DNA of 64,000 nucleotides from Prevotella sp. E13-17. GTDB taxonomy: Bacteria > Bacteroidota > Bacteroidia > Bacteroidales > Bacteroidaceae. The notes under the pieces were generated by a model, which made no database searches, was not told the DNA's origin, and saw only the letters and a list, made by a program, of their open reading frames with translations. Below are positions 7,922 through 48,322 of this stretch, piece by piece. Each line of letters begins with the position of its first letter. Position 1 is the stretch's first letter. The DNA is taken from contig NZ_CP091787.1 of NCBI RefSeq assembly GCF_022024035.1, forward strand, positions 2,691,001-2,755,000, in the 5' to 3' direction. The position numbers and the translations under genes were made by a program.

Positions 7922-8004
7922 GAATAGCGCCCCCAAACGACCCGTTTGGAGGCGCTATTCAAGTCGTTTGGCGGCCCCAAACCATCCGTTTGGAGCCGCC
8001 AAAC
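7922..8004. repeat. Two tandem hairpins built from 11-bp units
   Basis: Two 39-bp imperfect palindromes (7922-7960 and 7966-8004) have centres 44 bp apart. Outer arms are GAATAGCGCC/GGCGCTATTC and GTTTGGCGGC/GCCGCCAAAC; inner arms are CCAAACG/CGTTTGG and CCAAAC/GTTTGG. Read in steps of 11 from 7923, the units resemble one another (CAAACGACCCG, CAAACCATCCG, TTTGGAGGCGC, TTTGGAGCCGC). The second hairpin directly abuts the stop codon of the M16 peptidase gene and could also end its transcript. The rest of the 7820-8004 gap shows nothing else. Confidence 0.75.
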
Positions 8005-10848
8005 TTATTCCGTCGTAATGTACCCTATATGACAACTGCCTTTCTTGAGCATTTTTCTCAGATATGCTTTAAGTGAAGCTGGTGTAACCTGCCTAACACA
8101 AGTCAAATCAAAAGGATCGTCAAGCTCATCGCCAAACTCACGATTCAGATAAGTATTACATGGATCCTGCTTATTTGCTTTTAAGAATTCCATCACCTGC
8201 TTATTAGAAGTTTCTATCTCCTTCACCGAGCTGTCTATGAGTTCTTGCGTTATCAAACCACCTTCTACCATATCATTGACCATATCTCTCACGTCTTGAG
8301 CAATGCGCTCACGCTGACTGGGGTCACATGTATAAAAAATAGGACAGTACAGACGAGGAATGGGTTGTACTATGGTAATCACACTACAAAAAGGTGAATA
8401 CACATCACTATGCTGCTTACGTAGCACGTTGAAAAGAAGTTTTCCAAGAACTCTCTGCAGCACATTATTATGAGCATTTGTCTGTGGCGTATATTTGTAT
8501 CCTTTCTCCCAAACATACATTATATAGGTCTCGCAATAAGGCTTATCCATTTCCACTTTTTCTACCAGCGTAGAATTACTAGTTTTATAGTGGTCTGAAG
8601 GCCATACCATTCGCTTCACGGGCTTTTTCTCCGATGGAAGAGTTGCAATATATTTCATAATAGATGGCATGATGCTGTCTATTTCGTAGTTTCCATGAAC
8701 CAACAGCACAGAGCCATTATAATTAGATTTATACTTTTTCACTATCTGGCGGAAATGGTCTAAAGAGAATGCAGAGAGTTGATCAGCTGTCAGTGCATTG
8801 ATTCTGTCAAGCGATGCACTTGGCAGATTTTTAATTTTATTTCTTGCCGTTATTAATGGGTTGTCACTTGTTGCGGTTTTTTCCTGAAGTTGTTTCAGAC
8901 TCTTATTGAACTTAACCGAGTCCACATCAACATTGGTCAAGTTTAGATAGAAGCCTTTAAGACTTCCTTCGACAGCACTATGATCGTAAACTGTGATCTC
9001 GAGGTTGTCCTCATAATCGCCTGCAGAAAAATCAGGGAAGCTCTTATATTTGACAACACAATTATTCAGCATGTTTCGATAACCATACTCGTCGTTCTTC
9101 AACATAGAGAAACCTGATGGGCGACGAAAAGCAAAACGCAATTGGCTACTGCCTTTATCCTTCCATAAAACCACTTTTACACCATTCGGCAAAAAGACTT
9201 CACTGATACTATCATTCAGAACTTTAATCTTTTTCGCCAAAGGAGGAACGGTGATAACTTCAACGCTATCAATATCTTTCTCTTCCGGTTCACTTTCTTT
9301 CGTGTTTTCAACGCTGAGCAATTCGTCATCCGACATTCGCTTCACCCGTTCAATCACAGCCAAAGCCTCATCTTCCGTAGGCGCTTTCACATTGTCAGGA
9401 AACATCATTGTAATGAGCAGGTTTCGGTCGTCGGTCAGCTTGAGGAATTCTTGGTGCATCTGCTCTTGTGTCATCGTGGATACAATGTAACTATGCGCCA
9501 CTTCACTTGCCATTGGCTGCTTAATCGTCTTTCCTTTTAGGAAGTTGTTTGTACAAGCTTTCATCAAATCTACGCTTGTGCGTTGTTTAGATGTGCGTTC
9601 CACAAAGGTTGTGTCAACCAGTATGAGGGCTGTCGTGTCAGCATTGAATTCAGGCATACTGACAGTGTAGGTCTCCTTCCATTCTTGATGAGTGAATCCC
9701 TTGCGGCGAATCAGTTCCACCTGCTTCATGAGTGTTTCCAACGTTGACTGCCACTGGTCAGGAGCACTCGAGAGTTTGAAAGAGAGAAGCTCTTGTCCCC
9801 CATCTACGAGCTCCATCTTTAAAGAAGAGTCAAAACTTGCCAATCCTGTGATTTGAGTTTGCAAGTCCCCAATTTTCCATTGCATAATGTTCGTAATCTT
9901 ATCACGAATATAGTCTGTACGTATACCTCCAATTGTATGACGGGATTCAGCAGCCAACTCTGGAACATTCATCAGAAACGATACATCAAAAGCGTTTTGG
10001 GCTTTATCCTGATAGCAACGTAAACGGAGACCATTAGCATTAGGAATCTCGGAAAATGGAGCAACGACATGTTTGCCGCGCGCTCTGTCCCCAAAGTGTG
10101 CTTTCAGCTTATCCACCATTACGTCAGGGTCAACATCACCCACAACGATGACTGTCTGGTTCTGCGGCTCATACCAACGATGGTAGAAATCGCGTATCAA
10201 TTGTGGCGAACAGTTTCTGATAATATCCATGTCGCCTATGGGACTACGTTTCGTATAGGCGGAATAATTAAAGATCTCGTTCAAAACTTGCTCACCAGAA
10301 GGCGAAGCCTTGCGCATTCTCCATTCCTCTACTATAACATTACGCTCACTCTCCACGTCTTTATCCGTGATGACAACATCATTAGCCCAATCGCGCATCA
10401 GCAGCAGACAGGAATCCAGCAGTAAAGTATTGTCTGCAGGAATATAGTGAAGCAAGTAGCGCACCGTATTGTATCCAGTAAAGGCATTGCTATCATGTCC
10501 GAACTGGATGCCGTTGCGTCGCATAAATTCAATCACACTGCTATTAGGGAAATGCTTCGTTCCCTTGAAAGCCATATGCTCTACGAAATGTGCGATACCC
10601 TGTTCATTGTCGTTCTCCACCATTGATCCGCCCTTGACAAGCAATTCGAAATAGACACGTTTTTCAGGATTATCACACCGACACACATAATAGGTCATAC
10701 CATTTGCCAACACGCCCTTGCGCACAGTGGAGTCTGCTGGTATCACCTGCTGGTCAATCTTGTCCTGATGTGCAAACAACGTACACTCTTCTTGGGAAAA
10801 TGCAACAATACTTACTAAAGTGAAAACAATACTTAAAAAAAATTTCAT
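8005..10848 (-). CDS. M16 family zinc metallopeptidase, exported
   Basis: A 947-residue insulinase/pitrilysin-type protease. The start at 10848 gives a signal peptide (MKFFLSIVFTLVSIVAFSQ); the upstream extension has none and spans the promoter. The N-terminal active domain carries the inverted zinc motif HFVEH at 87-91 (ligands H87 and H91, catalytic E90), with the third ligand in ESERNVIVEE (near E168). A second, catalytically silent M16 domain fills the C-terminal half, as usual for two-domain family members. The likely site is the periplasm or outer membrane, degrading peptides. It has its own promoter and stands alone between two repeat-rich gaps. Substrate unknown. Confidence 0.92.
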   Translation of the reverse strand: MKFFLSIVFTLVSIVAFSQEECTLFAHQDKIDQQVIPADSTVRKGVLANGMTYYVCRCDNPEKRVYFELLVKGGSMVENDNEQGIAHFVEHMAFKGTKHFPNSSVIEFMRRNGIQFGHDSNAFTGYNTVRYLLHYIPADNTLLLDSCLLLMRDWANDVVITDKDVESERNVIVEEWRMRKASPSGEQVLNEIFNYSAYTKRSPIGDMDIIRNCSPQLIRDFYHRWYEPQNQTVIVVGDVDPDVMVDKLKAHFGDRARGKHVVAPFSEIPNANGLRLRCYQDKAQNAFDVSFLMNVPELAAESRHTIGGIRTDYIRDKITNIMQWKIGDLQTQITGLASFDSSLKMELVDGGQELLSFKLSSAPDQWQSTLETLMKQVELIRRKGFTHQEWKETYTVSMPEFNADTTALILVDTTFVERTSKQRTSVDLMKACTNNFLKGKTIKQPMASEVAHSYIVSTMTQEQMHQEFLKLTDDRNLLITMMFPDNVKAPTEDEALAVIERVKRMSDDELLSVENTKESEPEEKDIDSVEVITVPPLAKKIKVLNDSISEVFLPNGVKVVLWKDKGSSQLRFAFRRPSGFSMLKNDEYGYRNMLNNCVVKYKSFPDFSAGDYEDNLEITVYDHSAVEGSLKGFYLNLTNVDVDSVKFNKSLKQLQEKTATSDNPLITARNKIKNLPSASLDRINALTADQLSAFSLDHFRQIVKKYKSNYNGSVLLVHGNYEIDSIMPSIMKYIATLPSEKKPVKRMVWPSDHYKTSNSTLVEKVEMDKPYCETYIMYVWEKGYKYTPQTNAHNNVLQRVLGKLLFNVLRKQHSDVYSPFCSVITIVQPIPRLYCPIFYTCDPSQRERIAQDVRDMVNDMVEGGLITQELIDSSVKEIETSNKQVMEFLKANKQDPCNTYLNREFGDELDDPFDLTCVRQVTPASLKAYLRKMLKKGSCHIGYITTE

Positions 10849-10901
10849 GATAGTTATTGGGTTTATATAAGATGATTTTAGTTTTTCTGTCTTTTGAGGC
10901 G

Positions 10902-10909
10902 CAAAGGTA
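10902..10909 (-). promoter_or_regulatory. -7 element of M16 peptidase gene
   Basis: TACCTTTGCG on the minus strand, 53 bp before the chosen ATG. This position also argues against the longer start, which would put the promoter inside the coding region. Confidence 0.7.
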
Positions 10910-10987
10910 ACATTATTCCCTAAACAGACAAACAATTTAATACAATTTAATATATAAAGGCATCTCGTCATTTGCTTAAAGCGGCAG

Positions 10988-11167
10988 TTTTATAGTTTAA
11001 AAGCAACAGTTCTACAGTCTAGAAATGGCTGTTTTAAAGTCTAAAACCAAAACAACTGTTTTACGTTTAGCCCCTGGAAAGCCTGCTTCCAGCCCCTGGA
11101 AGCATCATTTCCAAGGGCTGGAACAACCTCGTCCAGGGGCTGGAATTGACTCGTCTAGGGGCTAGAC
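10988..11167. repeat. Array 1: eight 15-bp dyads at 22-bp spacing
   Basis: Eight units, each a 5-bp arm, 5-bp loop and 5-bp arm, start at 10988, 11010, 11032, 11065, 11087, 11109, 11131 and 11153. Steps are 22, 22, 33, 22, 22, 22 and 22 bp. The first three have AGT-centred loops (TTTTATAGTTTAAAA, TTCTACAGTCTAGAA, TTTTAAAGTCTAAAA). The last five have GCCCC or GGGGC-type loops (for example TTCCAGCCCCTGGAA, GTCTAGGGGCTAGAC). Arms change in pairs so that pairing is kept. The 7-bp spacers are not conserved; the 33-bp step has an 18-bp spacer. It lies between the M16 promoter and the 3' end of the CotH-like gene. No gene was seen in it. Confidence 0.85.
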
Positions 11168-11230
11168 GGGAACCAAAACCTAAACTATTGCAATGCAAAA
11201 GTGCCACTTCTGCGCTGCCAAACCAAAAGA

Positions 11231-11286: not shown

Positions 11287-14200
11287 TTACTTCATAAACT
11301 TACAGCTGACGCGAGCGTCCTGACTGTTGGTGGCACGTGCCACATAGAAGCCCGAGGGCAGATGAGAGACGTTGATGCGAGCCGTGCCACCAGTAATGTT
11401 GACAGCGGTGCGCTCTATCAGTCGGCCGTCGGTGGTGAAGATGTCCACAACGGCCTTGTCGGCCTCGTCGCTCTTCACGAACAAGGTCTGCGCACCATAG
11501 CGGATGCGGAATCCATTGGCCGAAGCAATCAAAGCAGGCTGAACGCCAGAGATGATGTCGCGCTGCGGCTCCTCCACCAGATAGCTGGTGAGCATGTTGG
11601 TCTTCCCGATGGTGGGCACGTTCATCTGATAGATGGCCGAAGCACCATCAGGATAGCGACCCACCGTGGTGTTGCCATCGTGAGCACTATAGACGAACTT
11701 GTCGGTCCAGGTGCGACCACGGTCGGAGAGCATCAGATAGCCACCCTCGCCGCTGATCTTGAACGAAGCATGCAGGGCCTGGTCGGTGGTGGCGAGCTTG
11801 TCGCACCAGATGAGCAGATGACCGTGGGCAGGAATGACGGTGTTGACCTTGGTGCCGTCCTTTGCTATCTGGTACTTCATGGGCTGATCAATATCGTCGG
11901 TGAGGAACATGCCCTCTACGTCGATGTCGGCATCAGTGGTGTTGTAGAGTTCCACCCAGTCGTTCTTCTTGGCATATTCGTTGATATAGACGCTGTTAGA
12001 ACCGCTCACCTCGTTGATGCAGACAGGATTAACGCTATGACCCATTCGCTCGATGGTGTTCATGGGGCGGAAGCTTGCCACCAGTTCTACATCGCCTTCG
12101 GGCAGTGTGATCTCCTCTTTCGTAGAATAATAATTAGGTGTGGCATTGTCTTCATCCAGCATGCTGAACGAGGCATCCCAGACAACGTCTGTTGAGTTGG
12201 CCTGGTTATTGTGCAGTTCGACGGCAATAACATTGCTGCCACGCTGGAACAGAGAGGCATCGAGCGTGAAGAAGACACGGTCGGGATTATCATTGGCATA
12301 GGTCGTGGCAAACGTGTTGTAAGTCACAAGGCCAGAGGGCATGTTATAGCGGCCGGCCTCTTGACCGTTGACATAGACCACTGCTCCATCATCGAGGGTA
12401 CAGTAGAGACGGAACTGAGTCGTGGCTGAGGGTGCTGCATTCAGCACCACATTCTTGCGGAAGTAGTAGGTGGGACGCTTGTCGTTGGCATTGTCGCCAA
12501 AGTCAAGGCGTGTGGTTTCAGAGACATTGGGGTTGTTGTAGCCCAAAGGTGCGCCACCCGTCTTCCATTCTGTGGTCTGATAGGCAGGAGAGGTCCAGTC
12601 CGCATGATCTAACGAGCCTTGGTCGTAGTATGACCACGTGGCGCCAGTGGCAAAGAGCTGCGTCTCTTTCATCGAAGCCTTCTGTTTCCACCCTTGGAAC
12701 ACATAGCCGCCAGGAGCCACCGCACGAAGCGTGGTTGGCGCAAAGAGGTAACCAGCAAAGCGACTGGTAGGTACCTGTATGCCGTTGATCAGCAGCTGTG
12801 CATCGGCAACATCGGTGCTGAGCAATACGTACTGACGACTGTTAAAATCTAAGTCGAGGGGCTGATAATTGCACAGGTCGCGGATAGACGTCAGCAGACG
12901 ATTGCTGAGATTGTCCTTCAGCTGTTTGGCGGTATTGTTGGCGGAACGTCCCTCCAGTGCCAAGGCAGGATTGGTGATGCCGGTAATGCCGTTGATGATA
13001 TCTATCGAGCGCTGAGCCTCGAACACGCTGCCGCCCATCATGCAATAGACATCGGTGAAGCGACGACGGAAGTCGCTATTGGCAAGCATGTTGCGGAAGA
13101 GCGTGACAAAGCGTATCTGATCGCTGATACGTCCCAGTTCGACGGGATAGAGCTGGTCGAAGGTGTAGTTCTCCTTACCCATGAAGCCATTGAAAGGATC
13201 GTTAGAGCTGAACACGCCATCGAGGTCGAAGGTGACGAAGCGGAACTTGCCATGGTCCTGATGGCGGAAGCCCTTGACATTGTTCTGAGGCCAGTCCCAG
13301 TTGGCCAGATAGAGCTGCAGCGCCATATAGTTGGCATAGGCATCGATGTCGAGCACACTGCATATCTCGGCATAGGTCTCAGGATTGGCTGCCGACTCCG
13401 AGAGGCTGACCAGATCGAGGAAAGCATCTTTTGTGCCACACTTCTGCACATAGCCTGAGTCGGGCGACATCTCGAACTGGTCGATCTCGTCGTCGTCCCA
13501 TCCGTAGTTAGCATAGACAAAATGTTTGTTGTTGGGCTCACGCACATTCAGCATGCCCATATACTGGCCATTCACAAACTCGTGGACGGGCTGGAACTCC
13601 TGATAATCTAGGTTTAGATGGGCTGAGCTGGCTATCATCTGAAGGGCGGCATCACGCAATCGACAGTTGTTGTCGTTGCCGCCATTACGAATCTGCAGGG
13701 TGCGATTGCGGTTATAGGGCTTTGCCGAGAAGAAGGGATAGAGCAGGTTCTTATTGCCTCCCATCTCCTTATTACCTTTCAGTTTGAAAGCCTTAGGATC
13801 CCAGGCACGGCTCCATCCGCCACACATCTCAAGATCGACATCCTGGTTGAATACCATGTCACCCTGTGCCGAGAGATACGAGAAGTTGACAGGTCGCTCC
13901 CAGTCCATGTTCCAGTTGCACTTCTCAGACTGGCCGTTGCCCGGACGCCCGTTGGGACCTTTGGCAAACACGCCCATCTCGGTGCTATAGATAAAGCGGT
14001 CGTCGGCAACAACAGAAACGACGGGCAACATGAAGTCGCGGATGCGATAGATATAAGAACGTGTGGTCACGGGCGAAGCAAGCTTGTCGTTGGCAAACAG
14101 GCGCAGACGCAGGTTGGTGGTCTCTGAGATGCGGAAGGTGCCATTGGTAGAAGTGCTGCCATTGTCTAACGTAGGCAGCGAGCCGTCAGTGGTGTAGCGC

Positions 14201-16482
14201 AAGGTGGCTCCAGAGGGGATGGTGACCGTGGCAGTGAAAGGACCATCGAAGAGGCGTGAGTCCTGATCAACGGCGGGCGCAGCCAACTGTTCGGTGGCAA
14301 AGCGGCTCGTAGCATTCGTGGCTTCAGGCGTAGGCATGGAGGTCTGTCCCCAGGTACTGCCGCCATCGGTGGTGCGGGCATAGCTGACACGTTCCATGGC
14401 CTGAGGATAGGCCTGGCTGGCTAACAGTTTGCCATCGGCATCGCTCAGGTAGATGGTGCCGCCATCAACATCGAGCTTGAACGGGGCGTTCTGCGAAGCG
14501 ATGTTATTGCTGTCGAACCAGACGACTTTATAGCCACGGGCAGGGATGGTACCAACGGTGGCTGGCATGCGCCACTTCTTGAGATTGCCGGCCTCATCGC
14601 TGAAGTAAAGTCCGGTCAGATCGAGTGTCTGATTAGAAGAGTTATAGAGCTCTACCCAACCATCGAAGTTATAGGCGGGGCTGACGAACTGATCGACATT
14701 GGCAGCCATCACCTCGTTGATGACCAAAGAACCGGTCACTTCCCCACTCTTCTTCACGGTGACCGTTACACTGCGAGACACACCCGAGCCATCGGTAGCC
14801 ATCGCAGTGATGACCGCCGTGCCTGGAGCTATTGCCCTGACAATGCCTTCTTGACTGACCACAGCCACTTGCTCGTTGTTAGACGACCAACTCAGTTGTC
14901 TGATCATGGCATTGGCAGGCAGCACGGTGGCATTGATCTGGGTGGTTTCGTTGACCACCAGTTCGGTGTTAGCATCGGAGAACTGAATATTGTTCACCTT
15001 AACCATATCGCCACAGAACTCCAAACGGAAATGACTGAAGATACACCAGTTGCCCGAACGGTAAATCTGATCATCAAGGGTCACACCAATATTGACATCG
15101 TTAGATGCATTGTTCAGCGTGAATTCAAGGGATGTTCTGTAGTTGTTGTCGCCATAAGCCACCAATACTGTCTCCATCGTGTTAGGGAAAGCATAGTCGT
15201 CGTAATAGCCTTCATCTTGCGCTATCCTATAATGTTGCCAGTCATTGTATTCGTCAGTCTGATAACGCAGATCGTAATAGGAAGGCATCAGCACACGATT
15301 GTCGTCGGCAAAAAGATAGGCAAAGCGGTCCTGCTGACTATTGCAATAGGCTGAGAGTGTAGGATTTAAATCATAACCACGATGGAAGCCCTGCACACTG
15401 AGGCGATAAGTACCGCTGGGCAACCCCTTGATTTGCTGTTGTGCCGTAAACATATAGGCGTTCCAGAACTCCATAGAACCGGCACGCACGGTGTTTGTGC
15501 CATTAATGCGCGTCACATCCCAACCCTCAAAAGAGGCGTTTGTTGTGAAATCGGGATTGGTCAGATAGGAAGAGGTGATGTCCACCCACTGACGGGTGTC
15601 GATAGTTGTTGGTGCTTGTTTCACTTGGAAGGTCAGCGTGCGAGACAGATTGGAACCATCCACGGTCTGCACGGTAGCATGGGCTGTTCCCACACCGCGA
15701 GCTATCAAGCGGCCGTCGGCTCCTACGGTAATCACAAAAGGATTATCTACGACCCATTTCAACTCGCGATTGGTGGCGTTTTCGGGTAGCGCACGAGCGA
15801 CAAGGGTGATTTCCTCGCCTACCTGAAGCGTGGTTTTCGGCGCGGTGAACTCTATATTGCTGACCGCCACCTGATTGAACTCGCCCAGATACTCAAGCTT
15901 GAAATTGTCGAACATGCACCAGTTATCGCTATAGTCGCGACTGAGATTGCGCAGCCCCAACTGAATCTGGCCGTCGGCATCGAACTCAATCTCGTTTATA
16001 TAGCCACCATCATTGAATGCCTCATTAGCTGACTCCATAGTATTGGGGAAGTAAACAGAGCCATCAGGCGACCAGCAATTGTTTCTATAAGACTCAAAGG
16101 AATAATCATAAACGCTTTTCAGAGTCTTTGTTTGATTGCCGGCATACAACTGGGCCGTAATGTTTTCCGTTTGGTTCTGATGGGCATTCCACGATATCTG
16201 ATTATTGGATATACGGAAATAGGCCTGCACCGACAGGCGATAATGTCCCTTGGGGAGGGTTGGCATCTGATAGATATCGAAAGTGCCATTGAAGAACTCA
16301 GCACTCTGAAGCCTGATATTAAACGACTGAGAATTGTAAGTGTAGGTCCATCCATCGATGGAATTGTCATCGAACGATGGGCTTTTCAAAAAGATACTGG
16401 TTACATCGGTCCACTGTTGAGCTTGTAAAGCAATGGAAAGACACAAGAAAAGACCCAATATCGAAATACGTTTCCTTTTCAT
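11287..16482 (-). CDS. Giant surface protein: CotH-like domain, lamin-tail domains, T9SS sorting domain
   Basis: A 1731-residue exported protein. Order seen: signal peptide (about 1-22); two beta-rich modules of about 190 residues starting with W-[TV]-D-[VI]-TS (about 23-200 and 297-490), each followed by a BIG2-type Ig domain (about 205-290 and 495-580); a lamin-tail domain (LVINEVMAANVDQF, DGWVELYNSS); a chitobiase-type domain (LRYTTDGSLPT); a CotH kinase-like domain (about 820-1190, with DVDLEMCGGWSR, NVREPNNKHF, NWDWPQNNVKGF and TFDLDG); a beta-sandwich near 1370-1490; a second lamin-tail domain (CINEVSG..DWVELYNTT); and a type A T9SS C-terminal domain (VDIFTTDGRLIERT..LPSGFYVARA). PorU and PorV, which process such domains, are encoded just upstream. 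The protein is probably cell-surface; whether the CotH domain phosphorylates anything is not known. Confidence 0.85.
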   Translation of the reverse strand: MKRKRISILGLFLCLSIALQAQQWTDVTSIFLKSPSFDDNSIDGWTYTYNSQSFNIRLQSAEFFNGTFDIYQMPTLPKGHYRLSVQAYFRISNNQISWNAHQNQTENITAQLYAGNQTKTLKSVYDYSFESYRNNCWSPDGSVYFPNTMESANEAFNDGGYINEIEFDADGQIQLGLRNLSRDYSDNWCMFDNFKLEYLGEFNQVAVSNIEFTAPKTTLQVGEEITLVARALPENATNRELKWVVDNPFVITVGADGRLIARGVGTAHATVQTVDGSNLSRTLTFQVKQAPTTIDTRQWVDITSSYLTNPDFTTNASFEGWDVTRINGTNTVRAGSMEFWNAYMFTAQQQIKGLPSGTYRLSVQGFHRGYDLNPTLSAYCNSQQDRFAYLFADDNRVLMPSYYDLRYQTDEYNDWQHYRIAQDEGYYDDYAFPNTMETVLVAYGDNNYRTSLEFTLNNASNDVNIGVTLDDQIYRSGNWCIFSHFRLEFCGDMVKVNNIQFSDANTELVVNETTQINATVLPANAMIRQLSWSSNNEQVAVVSQEGIVRAIAPGTAVITAMATDGSGVSRSVTVTVKKSGEVTGSLVINEVMAANVDQFVSPAYNFDGWVELYNSSNQTLDLTGLYFSDEAGNLKKWRMPATVGTIPARGYKVVWFDSNNIASQNAPFKLDVDGGTIYLSDADGKLLASQAYPQAMERVSYARTTDGGSTWGQTSMPTPEATNATSRFATEQLAAPAVDQDSRLFDGPFTATVTIPSGATLRYTTDGSLPTLDNGSTSTNGTFRISETTNLRLRLFANDKLASPVTTRSYIYRIRDFMLPVVSVVADDRFIYSTEMGVFAKGPNGRPGNGQSEKCNWNMDWERPVNFSYLSAQGDMVFNQDVDLEMCGGWSRAWDPKAFKLKGNKEMGGNKNLLYPFFSAKPYNRNRTLQIRNGGNDNNCRLRDAALQMIASSAHLNLDYQEFQPVHEFVNGQYMGMLNVREPNNKHFVYANYGWDDDEIDQFEMSPDSGYVQKCGTKDAFLDLVSLSESAANPETYAEICSVLDIDAYANYMALQLYLANWDWPQNNVKGFRHQDHGKFRFVTFDLDGVFSSNDPFNGFMGKENYTFDQLYPVELGRISDQIRFVTLFRNMLANSDFRRRFTDVYCMMGGSVFEAQRSIDIINGITGITNPALALEGRSANNTAKQLKDNLSNRLLTSIRDLCNYQPLDLDFNSRQYVLLSTDVADAQLLINGIQVPTSRFAGYLFAPTTLRAVAPGGYVFQGWKQKASMKETQLFATGATWSYYDQGSLDHADWTSPAYQTTEWKTGGAPLGYNNPNVSETTRLDFGDNANDKRPTYYFRKNVVLNAAPSATTQFRLYCTLDDGAVVYVNGQEAGRYNMPSGLVTYNTFATTYANDNPDRVFFTLDASLFQRGSNVIAVELHNNQANSTDVVWDASFSMLDEDNATPNYYSTKEEITLPEGDVELVASFRPMNTIERMGHSVNPVCINEVSGSNSVYINEYAKKNDWVELYNTTDADIDVEGMFLTDDIDQPMKYQIAKDGTKVNTVIPAHGHLLIWCDKLATTDQALHASFKISGEGGYLMLSDRGRTWTDKFVYSAHDGNTTVGRYPDGASAIYQMNVPTIGKTNMLTSYLVEEPQRDIISGVQPALIASANGFRIRYGAQTLFVKSDEADKAVVDIFTTDGRLIERTAVNITGGTARINVSHLPSGFYVARATNSQDARVSCKFMK

Positions 16483-28440: not shown

Positions 28441-28911
28441 ATGAACATTCTATCGCAGAACCCTCCCGACTATAGACACGACACCGTACTGCCCTTACCC
28501 ATGGAGGTAAAGGCAGACGCGTGGGCTGTGGACGCGGCCTGTAGCGGTAATCCCGGTCCTATGGAATATCAATGCATCGACTTACAGACAGGTGCACAGG
28601 TGTTTCACTACGGCCCCGTCAAAGGCACGAACAACATCGGAGAGTTTCTAGCCATCGTTCACGCTTTGGCACTCTGCTGGCAGAAGGGGCTTCACGACAA
28701 GACCATCTATAGCGACAGCAACAATGCCATCTTATGGGTGAAAAAGCGTCAATGCAAGACCAAACTGGAGCGCACCCCCGAAACGGAGCCGCTCTATCAA
28801 GTTATCCTACGTGCCGAAAACTGGCTGCGAACGCACAACTACCGTAATCCTATCGTGAAATGGGAAACCAAGAAATGGGGTGAGGTGCCAGCTGATTTCG
28901 GCAGAAAATAA
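28441..28911 (+). CDS. Ribonuclease H family protein
   Basis: A 156-residue RNase H fold protein expected to cut RNA in RNA-DNA hybrids. All four catalytic acids can be placed: D31 in VDAACSGNPGP, E68 in NNIGEFLAIVHAL, D92 in IYSDSNNAILWV, and D152 in VPADFGRK. It has no N-terminal hybrid-binding domain; instead residues 1-25 are a short leader. It starts 15 bases after the barrel gene and may share its transcript. Named an RNase HI-type enzyme; whether it is the cell's main RNase HI cannot be told here. Confidence 0.88.
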   Translation: MNILSQNPPDYRHDTVLPLPMEVKADAWAVDAACSGNPGPMEYQCIDLQTGAQVFHYGPVKGTNNIGEFLAIVHALALCWQKGLHDKTIYSDSNNAILWVKKRQCKTKLERTPETEPLYQVILRAENWLRTHNYRNPIVKWETKKWGEVPADFGRK

Positions 28912-29014
28912 GTTTCTATCTTAACAAGGAAAATAGTAATGGTGGGACTGTACCGCTTTTTGTACTGGACATACCGTTAATCTCTGTGATGCTTTGACAT
29001 GCACAAGAAACTAT

Positions 29015-29095
29015 GGCTCAAGCGAAAAATCATAGGGGTAATCCTTTATCTTTTTGTTATTTCAGTAAAGGCTCTGCAGATTCTTTAGACAGAAA
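29015..29095 (+). repeat. Dispersed repeat, copy 1 (about 81 bp)
   Basis: Direct repeat of 48237-48322. Shared blocks include GGCTCAAGCGAAAA, ATCATAGGGGTAATCCTTTA, TTTTTGTTATTTCAGTA and GCAGATTCTTTAG. Copy 1 lacks about six bases present in copy 2. It lies in the gene-free stretch 28912-29528, which otherwise holds only the GC-rich palindrome and array 2. Confidence 0.85.
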
Positions 29096-29135
29096 TTAAT
29101 TAAAATAGAAATCAGATAGAAAAAGGACAGAATTA

Positions 29136-29163
29136 CCCTCTCCCTCGGGAGAGTCGTGGTGGC
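29136..29163. repeat. Degenerate copy of GC-rich palindromic element
   Basis: CTCTCCC (29138-29144) pairs perfectly with GGGAGAG (29147-29153), followed by GTGGTGGCG. The layout of C-rich arm, G-rich arm and G-rich tail resembles the elements at 37958-37994 and 46803-46837, but decayed. Confidence 0.5.
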
Positions 29164-29197
29164 GTTGTTCATGGTCGGGACAGGAACGGTTTCGCAC

Positions 29198-29491
29198 TGT
29201 CATAGTTCTGCTTTCGTCTTGTTATAGTTTCACTTTTGCGTTGTAATAGCTTTACTTTTGATGTCCGTCTAGCCCCTAGATGTGGCGTGTCCAGCCCCTG
29301 TAACGGGTCGTTTTAGCCCCTGGATGCGGTCGTTCTAAGGGCTGGATGTAGAGCAGCCAGGGGCTAGACCAGAAATGATAGCTTCGGTTTTAGACTTCAG
29401 AAACGCCTCTTCTAGACTTTAGAACACGTGCTTTTAGACTTTAAAAACGGCCCTCTCCAGACTCTGGAAATACCAATTCAAGACTCTGGGA
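29198..29491. repeat. Array 2: thirteen 15-bp dyads at 22-bp spacing
   Basis: Units of 5-bp arm, 5-bp loop and 5-bp arm start at 29198, 29220, 29242, 29267, 29289, 29311, 29333, 29355, 29388, 29410, 29432, 29455 and 29477. Steps are 22 except 25, 33 and 23 once each. Three groups follow one another: TAG-type loops (3 units, weak arms), GCCCC/GGGGC-type loops (5 units, e.g. GTCTAGCCCCTAGAT), then GACTT/GACTC loops (5 units, e.g. TTCTAGACTTTAGAA, CTCCAGACTCTGGAA). The last two groups, with the 33-bp step between them, match array 1 read on the other strand. It sits between the convergent ends of the RNase H and ribD genes. Confidence 0.85.
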
Positions 29492-29528
29492 GCATTGCGA
29501 AACCTACGCAATTGCAACTGAGCCGAAA

Positions 29529-30470
29529 CTATTTAATGTAGTTCACGATGATGTTTTCACCATATACTTGTCGGGAAATCACCTTTATATTGGCTGGCAG
29601 CTGAGGAGCACGTGTACCTCCAGAAACGGTGAGCGCAGTATTCGTTTCCACTCTTATCTCATCCCACAAGCCCTGTGTCAAAAAAGACTCAAGCGTCTTT
29701 CGTCCACCCTCAACAATCAACGACTGTATTTTATGAGCGTGCAATACCTCGAGGTTCAACGGATGTTGGTGATCAATGACCAGACGTTTGGGGTTGTTGC
29801 CTTGCCACTGTCGCACCGTCAGCTGGGGATGTTCGCGCTCATTGGTCACACGCCCCACCAGAATAGCATCTTCTTCGGCCCTCAGCTTATGCGAGAGCAT
29901 CTGCGTGAAAGGCGTTGAAATAGCCAATGCCTTACCGTCGTCATCAATAAATCCATTGGCTGTCTGAGCCCACTTTAATATAATGTACGGGCGCGAGAGG
30001 CGATGAAAAGTGAAGAAGCGGCGATTCAACGCCTTGCACTCTTCCTCAAGCACGCCCACGGTGACCTCTATGCCGGCATCTCTCAGCTTTTTAATGCCTC
30101 TGCCCTGCACCTCGGCAAACTCGTCTATACAGCCAACCACCACACGCTTCACACCTTTCTTTATAATCAGGTCGGCACATGGAGGCGTCTTGCCATAATG
30201 TGAACAAGGTTCCAGCGACACATACATCGTGGCCTCGCTCAACAGTGGTTCATCCTCTGGTCGCACAGAGGCAAAAGCATTCACCTCAGCATGGCCCTGT
30301 CCGCAACGCACGTGATAGCCCTCGCCAAGGATTCTCCAACTCTCCCTCCCTTTTTGGGGTGCCGGCGGAAGGCTTATCACAGCTCCCACCATCGGGTTGG
30401 GTTTTGCGTTCTGCCGTCCGTTCTGCGCCAATTGCAGGCATCGACGCATATATTTCTCGTCTGTTGTCAT
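29529..30470 (-). CDS. ribD: Bifunctional riboflavin biosynthesis deaminase/reductase
   Basis: Deaminates and then reduces the pyrimidine intermediate of riboflavin synthesis in the cytosol. 313 residues. Deaminase zinc site: H60 and E62 in GHAEVNAF, C89 and C98 in EPCSHYGKTPPCADL. The reductase domain covers the C-terminal half (YIILKWAQTANGFIDDD, IWV-type LVGRVTNEREHPQLTVR). Odd feature: residues 33-46 (SLPPAPQKGRESWR) replace the short loop between VGAVI and ILGEGYH of other RibD proteins and are encoded by a GC-rich palindromic repeat. The active-site residues are unaffected, so the enzyme is probably functional. Confidence 0.94.
   Translation of the reverse strand: MTTDEKYMRRCLQLAQNGRQNAKPNPMVGAVISLPPAPQKGRESWRILGEGYHVRCGQGHAEVNAFASVRPEDEPLLSEATMYVSLEPCSHYGKTPPCADLIIKKGVKRVVVGCIDEFAEVQGRGIKKLRDAGIEVTVGVLEEECKALNRRFFTFHRLSRPYIILKWAQTANGFIDDDGKALAISTPFTQMLSHKLRAEEDAILVGRVTNEREHPQLTVRQWQGNNPKRLVIDHQHPLNLEVLHAHKIQSLIVEGGRKTLESFLTQGLWDEIRVETNTALTVSGGTRAPQLPANIKVISRQVYGENIIVNYIK
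30336..30374 (-). repeat. GC-rich palindromic element in frame inside ribD
   Basis: Encodes residues 33-46 of RibD. On the minus strand it reads as a variant of the prmC copy at 37751-37783 (AGCCTnCCnCCGnC, then CCCC and GGG runs). The peptides align as SLPPAPQKGRES and SLPPTPSKWKGH. Confidence 0.7.
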
Positions 30471-48236: not shown

Positions 48237-48322
48237 GGCTCAAGCGAAAATCATAGGGGTAATCCTTTATTTGCGCTTTTTGTTATTTCAGTAGAGGGCT
48301 CAGCAGATTCTTTAGGCAGAAA
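48237..48322 (+). repeat. Dispersed repeat, copy 2 (about 86 bp)
   Basis: Direct repeat of 29015-29095. Contains GGCTCAAGCGAAAATCATAG, GGGTAATCCTTTAT, an extra TTGCGC, TTTTTGTTATTTCAGTA and GCAGATTCTTTAGGC. It lies in the 48090-48501 gap, which otherwise shows only the ridA promoter. Confidence 0.85.

Follow-up and report, generated by a model that had tools for sequence, protein, structure and literature searches.

The 64,000-nucleotide stretch of Prevotella sp. E13-17 DNA analyzed here (the window) contains an array of short dyads, array 2, between the convergent 3′ ends of the genes encoding RNase H (28441-28911) and RibD (stop codon at 29529-29531). The original prediction listed 13 units starting between 29198 and 29477, at 22 bp with one 33-bp step, and all 13 are present in the sequence. 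From start to start, the steps are 22, 22, 25, 22, 22, 22, 22, 33, 22, 22, 23, and 22. Measured between dyad centers, the step leading from the first three units, which form a separate unit type (A), to the following five-unit block is 22 rather than 25, and the exceptions are reduced to 33 and 23. With a dyad defined by at least 4 of 6 pairs, seven pairs of centers are exactly 22 bp apart in the array 2 region, whereas 1,000 dinucleotide shuffles averaged 0.42 such pairs and never gave more than 3. In this copy, 5 or more of the 6 pairs are formed by only 4 of the 13 units, and the remainder are decayed. No Rfam match, terminator-like site, or sigma-70 promoter (of the consensus rather than the Bacteroidota type) was found within the array; outside it, two terminator-like sites are present, compared to 0.8 on average in shuffles. 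The spacers of 7 to 9 bp do not fit a CRISPR array, where unique spacers of ~30 bp are expected.

A second array, array 1, aligns on its opposite strand to array 2 with 72% identity over 216 bp, and in both, A-type units precede the predicted common order of five C/G units, a 33-bp step, and ACT units. The description of the arms of the two arrays as different in sequence was overstated, since most of the differences are C/T or A/G exchanges. Likewise, of the two arrays said to lie at gene 3′ ends, array 2 is found purely at 3′ ends, whereas array 1 separates the 3′ end of one gene (11287-16482, minus strand) from the 5′ end of another (8005-10971, minus strand). Two further dyads, TTTGGCGGCCCCAAA and TTTGGAGCCGCCAAA, are located exactly 22 bp apart at 7967-8003, at the 3′ end of an M16 peptidase gene. 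The features of the window are as follows.

10988..11203, minus strand: array 1, a divergent array (72%), with its C block at 11066-11166
29007..29014, unstranded: 8-bp target duplication GAAACTAT, left copy, from the sequence
29015..29524, plus strand: complete MITE copy, ~510 bp, GGCTCAAGCGAAAAATC ... GCAATTGCAACTGAGCC, with boundaries common to other copies
29015..29197, plus strand: MITE leader, holding a CCCTCTCCCTCGGGAGAG stretch near 29137
29198..29266, plus strand: A block, with three AATAGTNNNACTTTTG-type units, from the sequence
29268..29368, plus strand: C block, exactly five dyads with centers at 29274, 29296, 29318, 29340, and 29362 and central triplets CCC, CCC, CCC, GGG, and GGG, in this order
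29362..29395, plus strand: 33-bp step from the last C dyad center to the first D dyad center
29388..29491, plus strand: D block, five dyads with ACT centers (TYYAG ACT YTRRA), the last one decayed, with one step of 23
29492..29524, plus strand: MITE tail with the right terminal repeat ...GCAATTGCAACTGAGCC
29525..29532, unstranded: right copy of the target duplication GAAACTAT, overlapping the ribD stop codon (29529-29531)
48237..48322, plus strand: MITE left-end fragment, 87 aligned columns, 88.5%

The mobile element carrying array 2

A BLAST search of the array region against its own genome (G000; 3,454,626 bp in one contig) scored 40 of 93 candidates (56 rows), i.e., 34 places at 87 to 100% identity and 6 at 72 to 78%. 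Array 2 is one of the 34 and array 1 one of the 6 divergent places, and the third copy that the original prediction called for is thus present many times over. With a longer query and flanks, the repeat spans GGCTCAAGCGAAAAATC (29015) to GCAATTGCAACTGAGCC (29524), and its 6-bp terminal inverted repeats, GGCTCA/TGAGCC, enclose a short, noncoding element. Many copies are truncated at one end. Among 16 copies tested for target duplications, 8 have both ends, of which 5 carry a perfect 8-bp duplication (GAAACTAT in the window; CAAAAGAG, GCTTTTTG, CTCGCAAT, and CAGACTAC elsewhere, the last identified by eye in a copy whose left end reads GGGTCA), 1 has a duplication matching at 7 of 8 positions, and 2 have none. 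Since the duplication in the window spans the ribD stop codon, the end of this gene was preserved. A scan with the MITE end pattern gave 33 matches, 4 of them in unrelated DNA, compared to 0 for the reversed control, and detected no such ends beside array 1. One locus (L071) is a MITE copy without any array, and another (L070) consists of the right end only. A G+C-rich repeat of the CCCTCCCTCGGGAGGG type is found in the leader (29137-29165 in the window) of many copies, and similar stretches adjoin other genes in this genome and in Xylanibacter brevis.

The local form of array 2 is therefore a MITE of known kind. It is well supported that array 2 is the cargo of a nonautonomous MITE with 6-bp terminal repeats and 8-bp duplications, probably moved in trans by an ISL3-type transposase, and residence within a mobile element accounts for the copy number of the array in this genome. 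ISL3 elements make 8-bp duplications. The outer right end CTAAATTTCTACTGAGCC, which terminates 5 of the 34 MITE copies and the arrayless copy L071, also follows an ISL3-type transposase remnant at 2193380-2193565 (2193380-2193640 in the end comparison), a comparison that involves one end alone. Two further occurrences of this end, an exact one at 597719 and one differing by a single letter at 1437910, have no visible transposase beside them. Three PF01610 matches are present in the genome, namely, a 272-amino-acid frame (L193), beside which no MITE-type ends were seen, and two fragments. The CTAAATTTCTACTGAGCC-linked remnant is one of the three; the remaining two matches are similar to each other (88%) and dissimilar to it (about 53%). 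No intact ISL3 partner with MITE ends was found among these three matches.

REP/BIME-like elements moved by a RAYT (Y1 transposase) would also be palindromic, extragenic, and present in many copies, like these arrays, and one of the three Y1_Tnp genes of the genome is located beside a MITE copy. However, that gene, next to a truncated copy, is flanked by its own distinct repeat, TGATCATGGGGACAGG..., and the other two showed no such array by eye in ~3.2 kb around them. Mobilization by RAYT, which we consider highly improbable in general, was rejected for this genome because none of the three Y1_Tnp genes (0/3) is flanked by these dyads as its own REP. The first of these genes, of the RAYT type (L290, about 1014-2025), has the ~66-bp repeat TGATCATGGGGACAGG... 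on both sides.

An array class with fixed geometry

In the stretches of this genome that were covered (400 kb drawn at random, the whole window, and the surroundings of known copies), arrays outside the MITE combine units of three types in a mosaic fashion: A, which is AATAGTGGCACTTTT-like; C, TYYAG CCC/GGG CTRRA; and D, TYYAG ACT CTRRA. C units come in runs of five in 52 of 53 blocks (the 34 MITE copies and 18 of 19 others, which hold exactly five dyads at 22-bp steps), the remaining block having four. Such a fixed unit number argues against slippage. Together with the further copies and the recurring 33-bp step, which is also found in divergent arrays of the same genome and in Prevotella sp. 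RUI122 (L129 and L096), it upholds the proposal that the arrays are a defined element. D runs comprise five units in 18 cases, four in 11, three in 14, and two and six once each, many of these being from truncated MITE copies. A walker that favors 22 traced 148 steps outward from 20 blocks, of which 124 measured 22 bp, 17 measured 33 bp, and 7 measured 21, 23, 25, 26, or 32 bp.

Spacer similarity sorts the 18 five-dyad blocks and array 2 into 14 families, which are not fully independent given residual spacer similarity: identity in the spacers is 0.373, compared to 0.293 for random letters and 0.781 for the dyads. Twenty blocks, including two of Prevotella sp. RUI122, form a gapless alignment of 115 columns, in which T, A, and G of the half-sites are almost invariant and the central triplets are free. 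Near-random spacers in a gapless alignment indicate a geometry more durable than the spacer sequences. A model derived from these blocks matches further blocks in the genome, e.g., at 66951, 631012, and 1008137. Recent MITE copies lose dyads without repair, and their commonest second D unit is TTCAAGACTTTAGAA. Given such unrepaired decay in recent copies, the array may be inert inside the MITE.

Arrays in relatives and other genomes

Searches with two models matched 20 of 120 and 50 of 200 genomes, including that of E13-17. Because the models contain the 22-bp step, the spacing in their matches is biased toward it, and the claim of a period rests on position-unbiased samples (20 stretches of 20 kb per genome) in which distances between palindrome centers were counted. 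The E13-17 sample, which includes two MITE copies, gave 52 pairs at 22 bp (background, 14.4). Genomes G100 and G133 were picked for their many matches to the first model, with the G133 stretches drawn from contigs with such matches; G100 gave 139, 131, 107, 94, and 57 pairs at 11, 22, 33, 44, and 55 bp (background, 16.5), and G133 gave 75, 77, 51, 59, and 31 at the same distances (background, about 14). No signal was obtained from G040, a genome of the same genus picked as a single contig without model matches (21 at 22 bp; background, 20.5). The arrays of G100 are largely one dispersed element of ~190 bp. This element (L257, about 10714-10903, and elsewhere) has A/T tracts every 11 bp (AAAA N7 TTTT N7), is present at about 37 places in 400 kb, and has ends that, by eye, resemble imperfect inverted repeats, TGTAAA-ATA-TTTC. 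In G133, TTCAAGNNNCTTGAA dyads occur in runs of three in 19 of 25 cases (20 random stretches and two model loci), and two more palindrome types stand at 22 bp.

Of 29 loci from the 200-genome search (one from E13-17), 4 lack a chain and 3 have chains that look like chance (A/T-only or masked); the remainder carry palindromes such as TACCAG, TCCCAG, TTCCAC, TTTCAA, and GGGAAC at 22 bp in 2 to 15 units. A pattern scan of genome contigs returned at least 119 stretches, and 80 loci were inspected, of which six (L096, L105, L120, L129, L132, and L152) were retained as 22-bp dyad arrays. Most matches were rejected as unrelated 7-bp tandem repeats, TAGACTN, which according to record titles occur in many Bacteroidota and a few other phyla (L074-L153, e.g., L082, L086, and L144). 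When these loci, all fetched with a related pattern, were sorted by record title, those of Prevotellaceae/Bacteroidaceae (27 of 80) gave 34 pairs at 22 bp against 9.1, with no excess in the non-Prevotellaceae loci (24 against 28.9). Array 2 thus belongs to a wider and apparently undescribed class of arrays with a set number of small palindromes 22 bases apart, the palindromes differing by species; no description of such Prevotella arrays was found in the open-license PMC literature.

Positions, as opposed to spacing, are not shared. Of 100 genomes assigned to the genus (kinship according to the search tool), 91 contain RibD, among them that of E13-17. Inspection of 31 ribD loci, those of E13-17 and X. 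brevis (L152) included, revealed convergent ribD and rnhA genes in 19 and no RNase H within the locus in 12. The MITE is absent from the convergent junction in all 18 relatives. Fifteen of these have a gap of no more than 85 bp and one has a gap of 318 bp; in the other two, the gap is occupied by a different 22-bp array, with CAAACTCGTCGACTTTGTTGAA units in L318 and TCTAGACTCTAGA units in X. brevis. No match to array 2 was detected by BLAST in relatives (0/39 at an E value of 0.001), and no 22-bp pair was present at 12 of 12 stretches orthologous to four arrays of E13-17 in five relatives, one stretch being cut by a contig end and far-side synteny being proved for some but not all. The RNase H of the window (28441-28911) is 100% identical to that of X. 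brevis, compared to 81.6% for the neighboring RibD, which possibly reflects local gene exchange.

This turnover, together with the free decay of the 34 MITE copies, would be expected of inert repeats, i.e., blocks spread by transposition or recombination, without any host function, in which a mutation bias such as arises from template switching between arms would keep the dyads perfect. BrickBuilt, an intergenic MITE of Porphyromonas gingivalis with a leader, a tail, and an inner 23-nt tandem array, has been described as having arisen when a MITE trapped a repeat and provides a precedent (Klein 2015, PMC4596501). Yet dyads, the 22-bp step, and the number five persist over 14 families with spacers near saturation, and the same step is found with different palindromes in other species, so that we regard this explanation as somewhat doubtful.

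The likeness to BrickBuilt extends to a unit of 23 bp, close to the 22 bp here, to a leader and tail around an inner array, and to 19 copies versus 34; its printed consensus also contains dyad centers 11.5 bp apart when pairing is scored permissively (8 of 10 pairs, with ambiguity codes accepted). Identity was ruled out, since both the 23-nt unit and the GAGACCTTTGCA ends differ from those found here. BrickBuilt also has a 4-bp duplication and a repeat number of 1 to 22.8, as opposed to the five of the C blocks, and the available part of its description mentions no phased multitype lattice (PMC4596501). REP/BIME sequences are extragenic palindromes in ordered clusters of high copy number (PMC2817692). 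The arrays described here differ from them in lacking a RAYT link and in their 22-bp step, 3-nt centers, and set unit number. Iteron and centromere arrays, such as the 22-bp iterons of R6K and parC of R1, are helical-phase direct repeats in small fixed numbers that are bound cooperatively; here, by contrast, the units are dyads dispersed over tens of chromosomal loci.

A possible docking array or hairpins

Combining the two layers of evidence, we see about an even chance that array 2 is MITE cargo and at the same time a docking array, older than the MITE and double stranded. Taken separately, such a docking role, for a putative dimeric DNA-binding protein, is from sequence evidence a serious possibility just short of even. 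In this model, the spacing of TYYAG-N3-CTRRA dyads by precisely 22 bp, or two helical turns, would place the bound dimers on one DNA face, and the five-dyad block of 110 bp would form one nucleoprotein unit flanked by in-phase A- and D-type units. Step and dyad number would stay constant across species, with the arms evolving in concert with the protein. The conserved half-site letters, variable central triplets, and exact multiples of 11 bp favor a double-stranded array read by a protein.

Alternatively, the dyads could act as hairpins, either in RNA when transcribed (mRNA 3′-end protection, termination, or processing) or as single-stranded DNA. Dyads pair in 90.6 to 90.8% of cells, compared to 20 to 57% when slid, and arrays show a 3′-end bias in two genomes: in G100 and G133 together, they are rarer in divergent gaps (2/48 versus 39/200; P = 0.009) and commoner in convergent gaps (17/48 versus 33/200; P = 0.005), based on crude ORF calls and omitting 12 arrays inside such ORFs or at stretch ends. 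Avoidance of divergent gaps is not significant in either genome taken singly, nor is the 3′-end trend in E13-17 (8 convergent, 20 tandem, and 6 divergent MITE copies; 6, 10, and 3 for the 19 non-MITE arrays). In 110 non-MITE units of E13-17, chosen by an AG-NNN-YT core that fixes positions ±2 and ±3 and including a few chance matches and two related array pairs, pairing exceeds shuffles at ±4 (76 versus 53.2; 0/300) and mildly at ±5 (78 versus 72.1; 10/300) but not at ±7. However, T.G and C.A mismatches are equally frequent at ±4 (16 versus 17), which indicates no wobble preference, and covariation in the alignments is absent on A1 (313 of 500 column shuffles reach the score) and borderline on A2 (29 of 500). 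Fold z-scores are only −1.4 and −2.4, the array contains neither an Rfam match nor a terminator-like site, the arms are conserved in sequence while the central triplet varies, and hairpins do not need an exact 22-bp phase. Hairpins therefore appear unlikely; kept arms, free centers and spacers, weak covariation, and helical phase seem to fit a double-stranded docking array better.

Several findings nonetheless speak against docking. The arrays have no positional conservation (0/12 orthologous stretches), and the 3′-end bias in E13-17 is not significant. The D blocks are not uniform in length, one of the C blocks contains four dyads, and arrays elsewhere have 8 or 15 units. G040 is without signal despite belonging to the same genus, G100 and G133 were chosen for model matches, and the covariation at ±4 (76 versus 53 of 110) is also predicted by the hairpin model. 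The constant number could result from descent by whole-block copying instead of selection.

For the docking array reading, we tentatively suggest that a genus, most likely Prevotella, holds a class of docking arrays with a set dyad number (five here and three in G133) two turns apart, whose sequence might be rewritten by species together with the putative dimeric protein and whose quick positional turnover would come partly from MITE hitchhiking. Prevotella-type bacteria are abundant in the rumen, mouth, and gut, and their noncoding DNA is little described. The finding itself is real, and its surprising part is a set-number, helix-phased dyad array carried by a MITE, which shows one route by which such arrays multiply. 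At gene 3′ ends, a tendency in two genomes, the arrays may insulate or organize the chromosome or may simply do least harm there. A repeat class that keeps its step and number while its letters change shows that geometry and symmetry are what is kept, and it raises the testable questions of which protein reads the array and whether it marks the ends of transcription units or serves chromosome folding.
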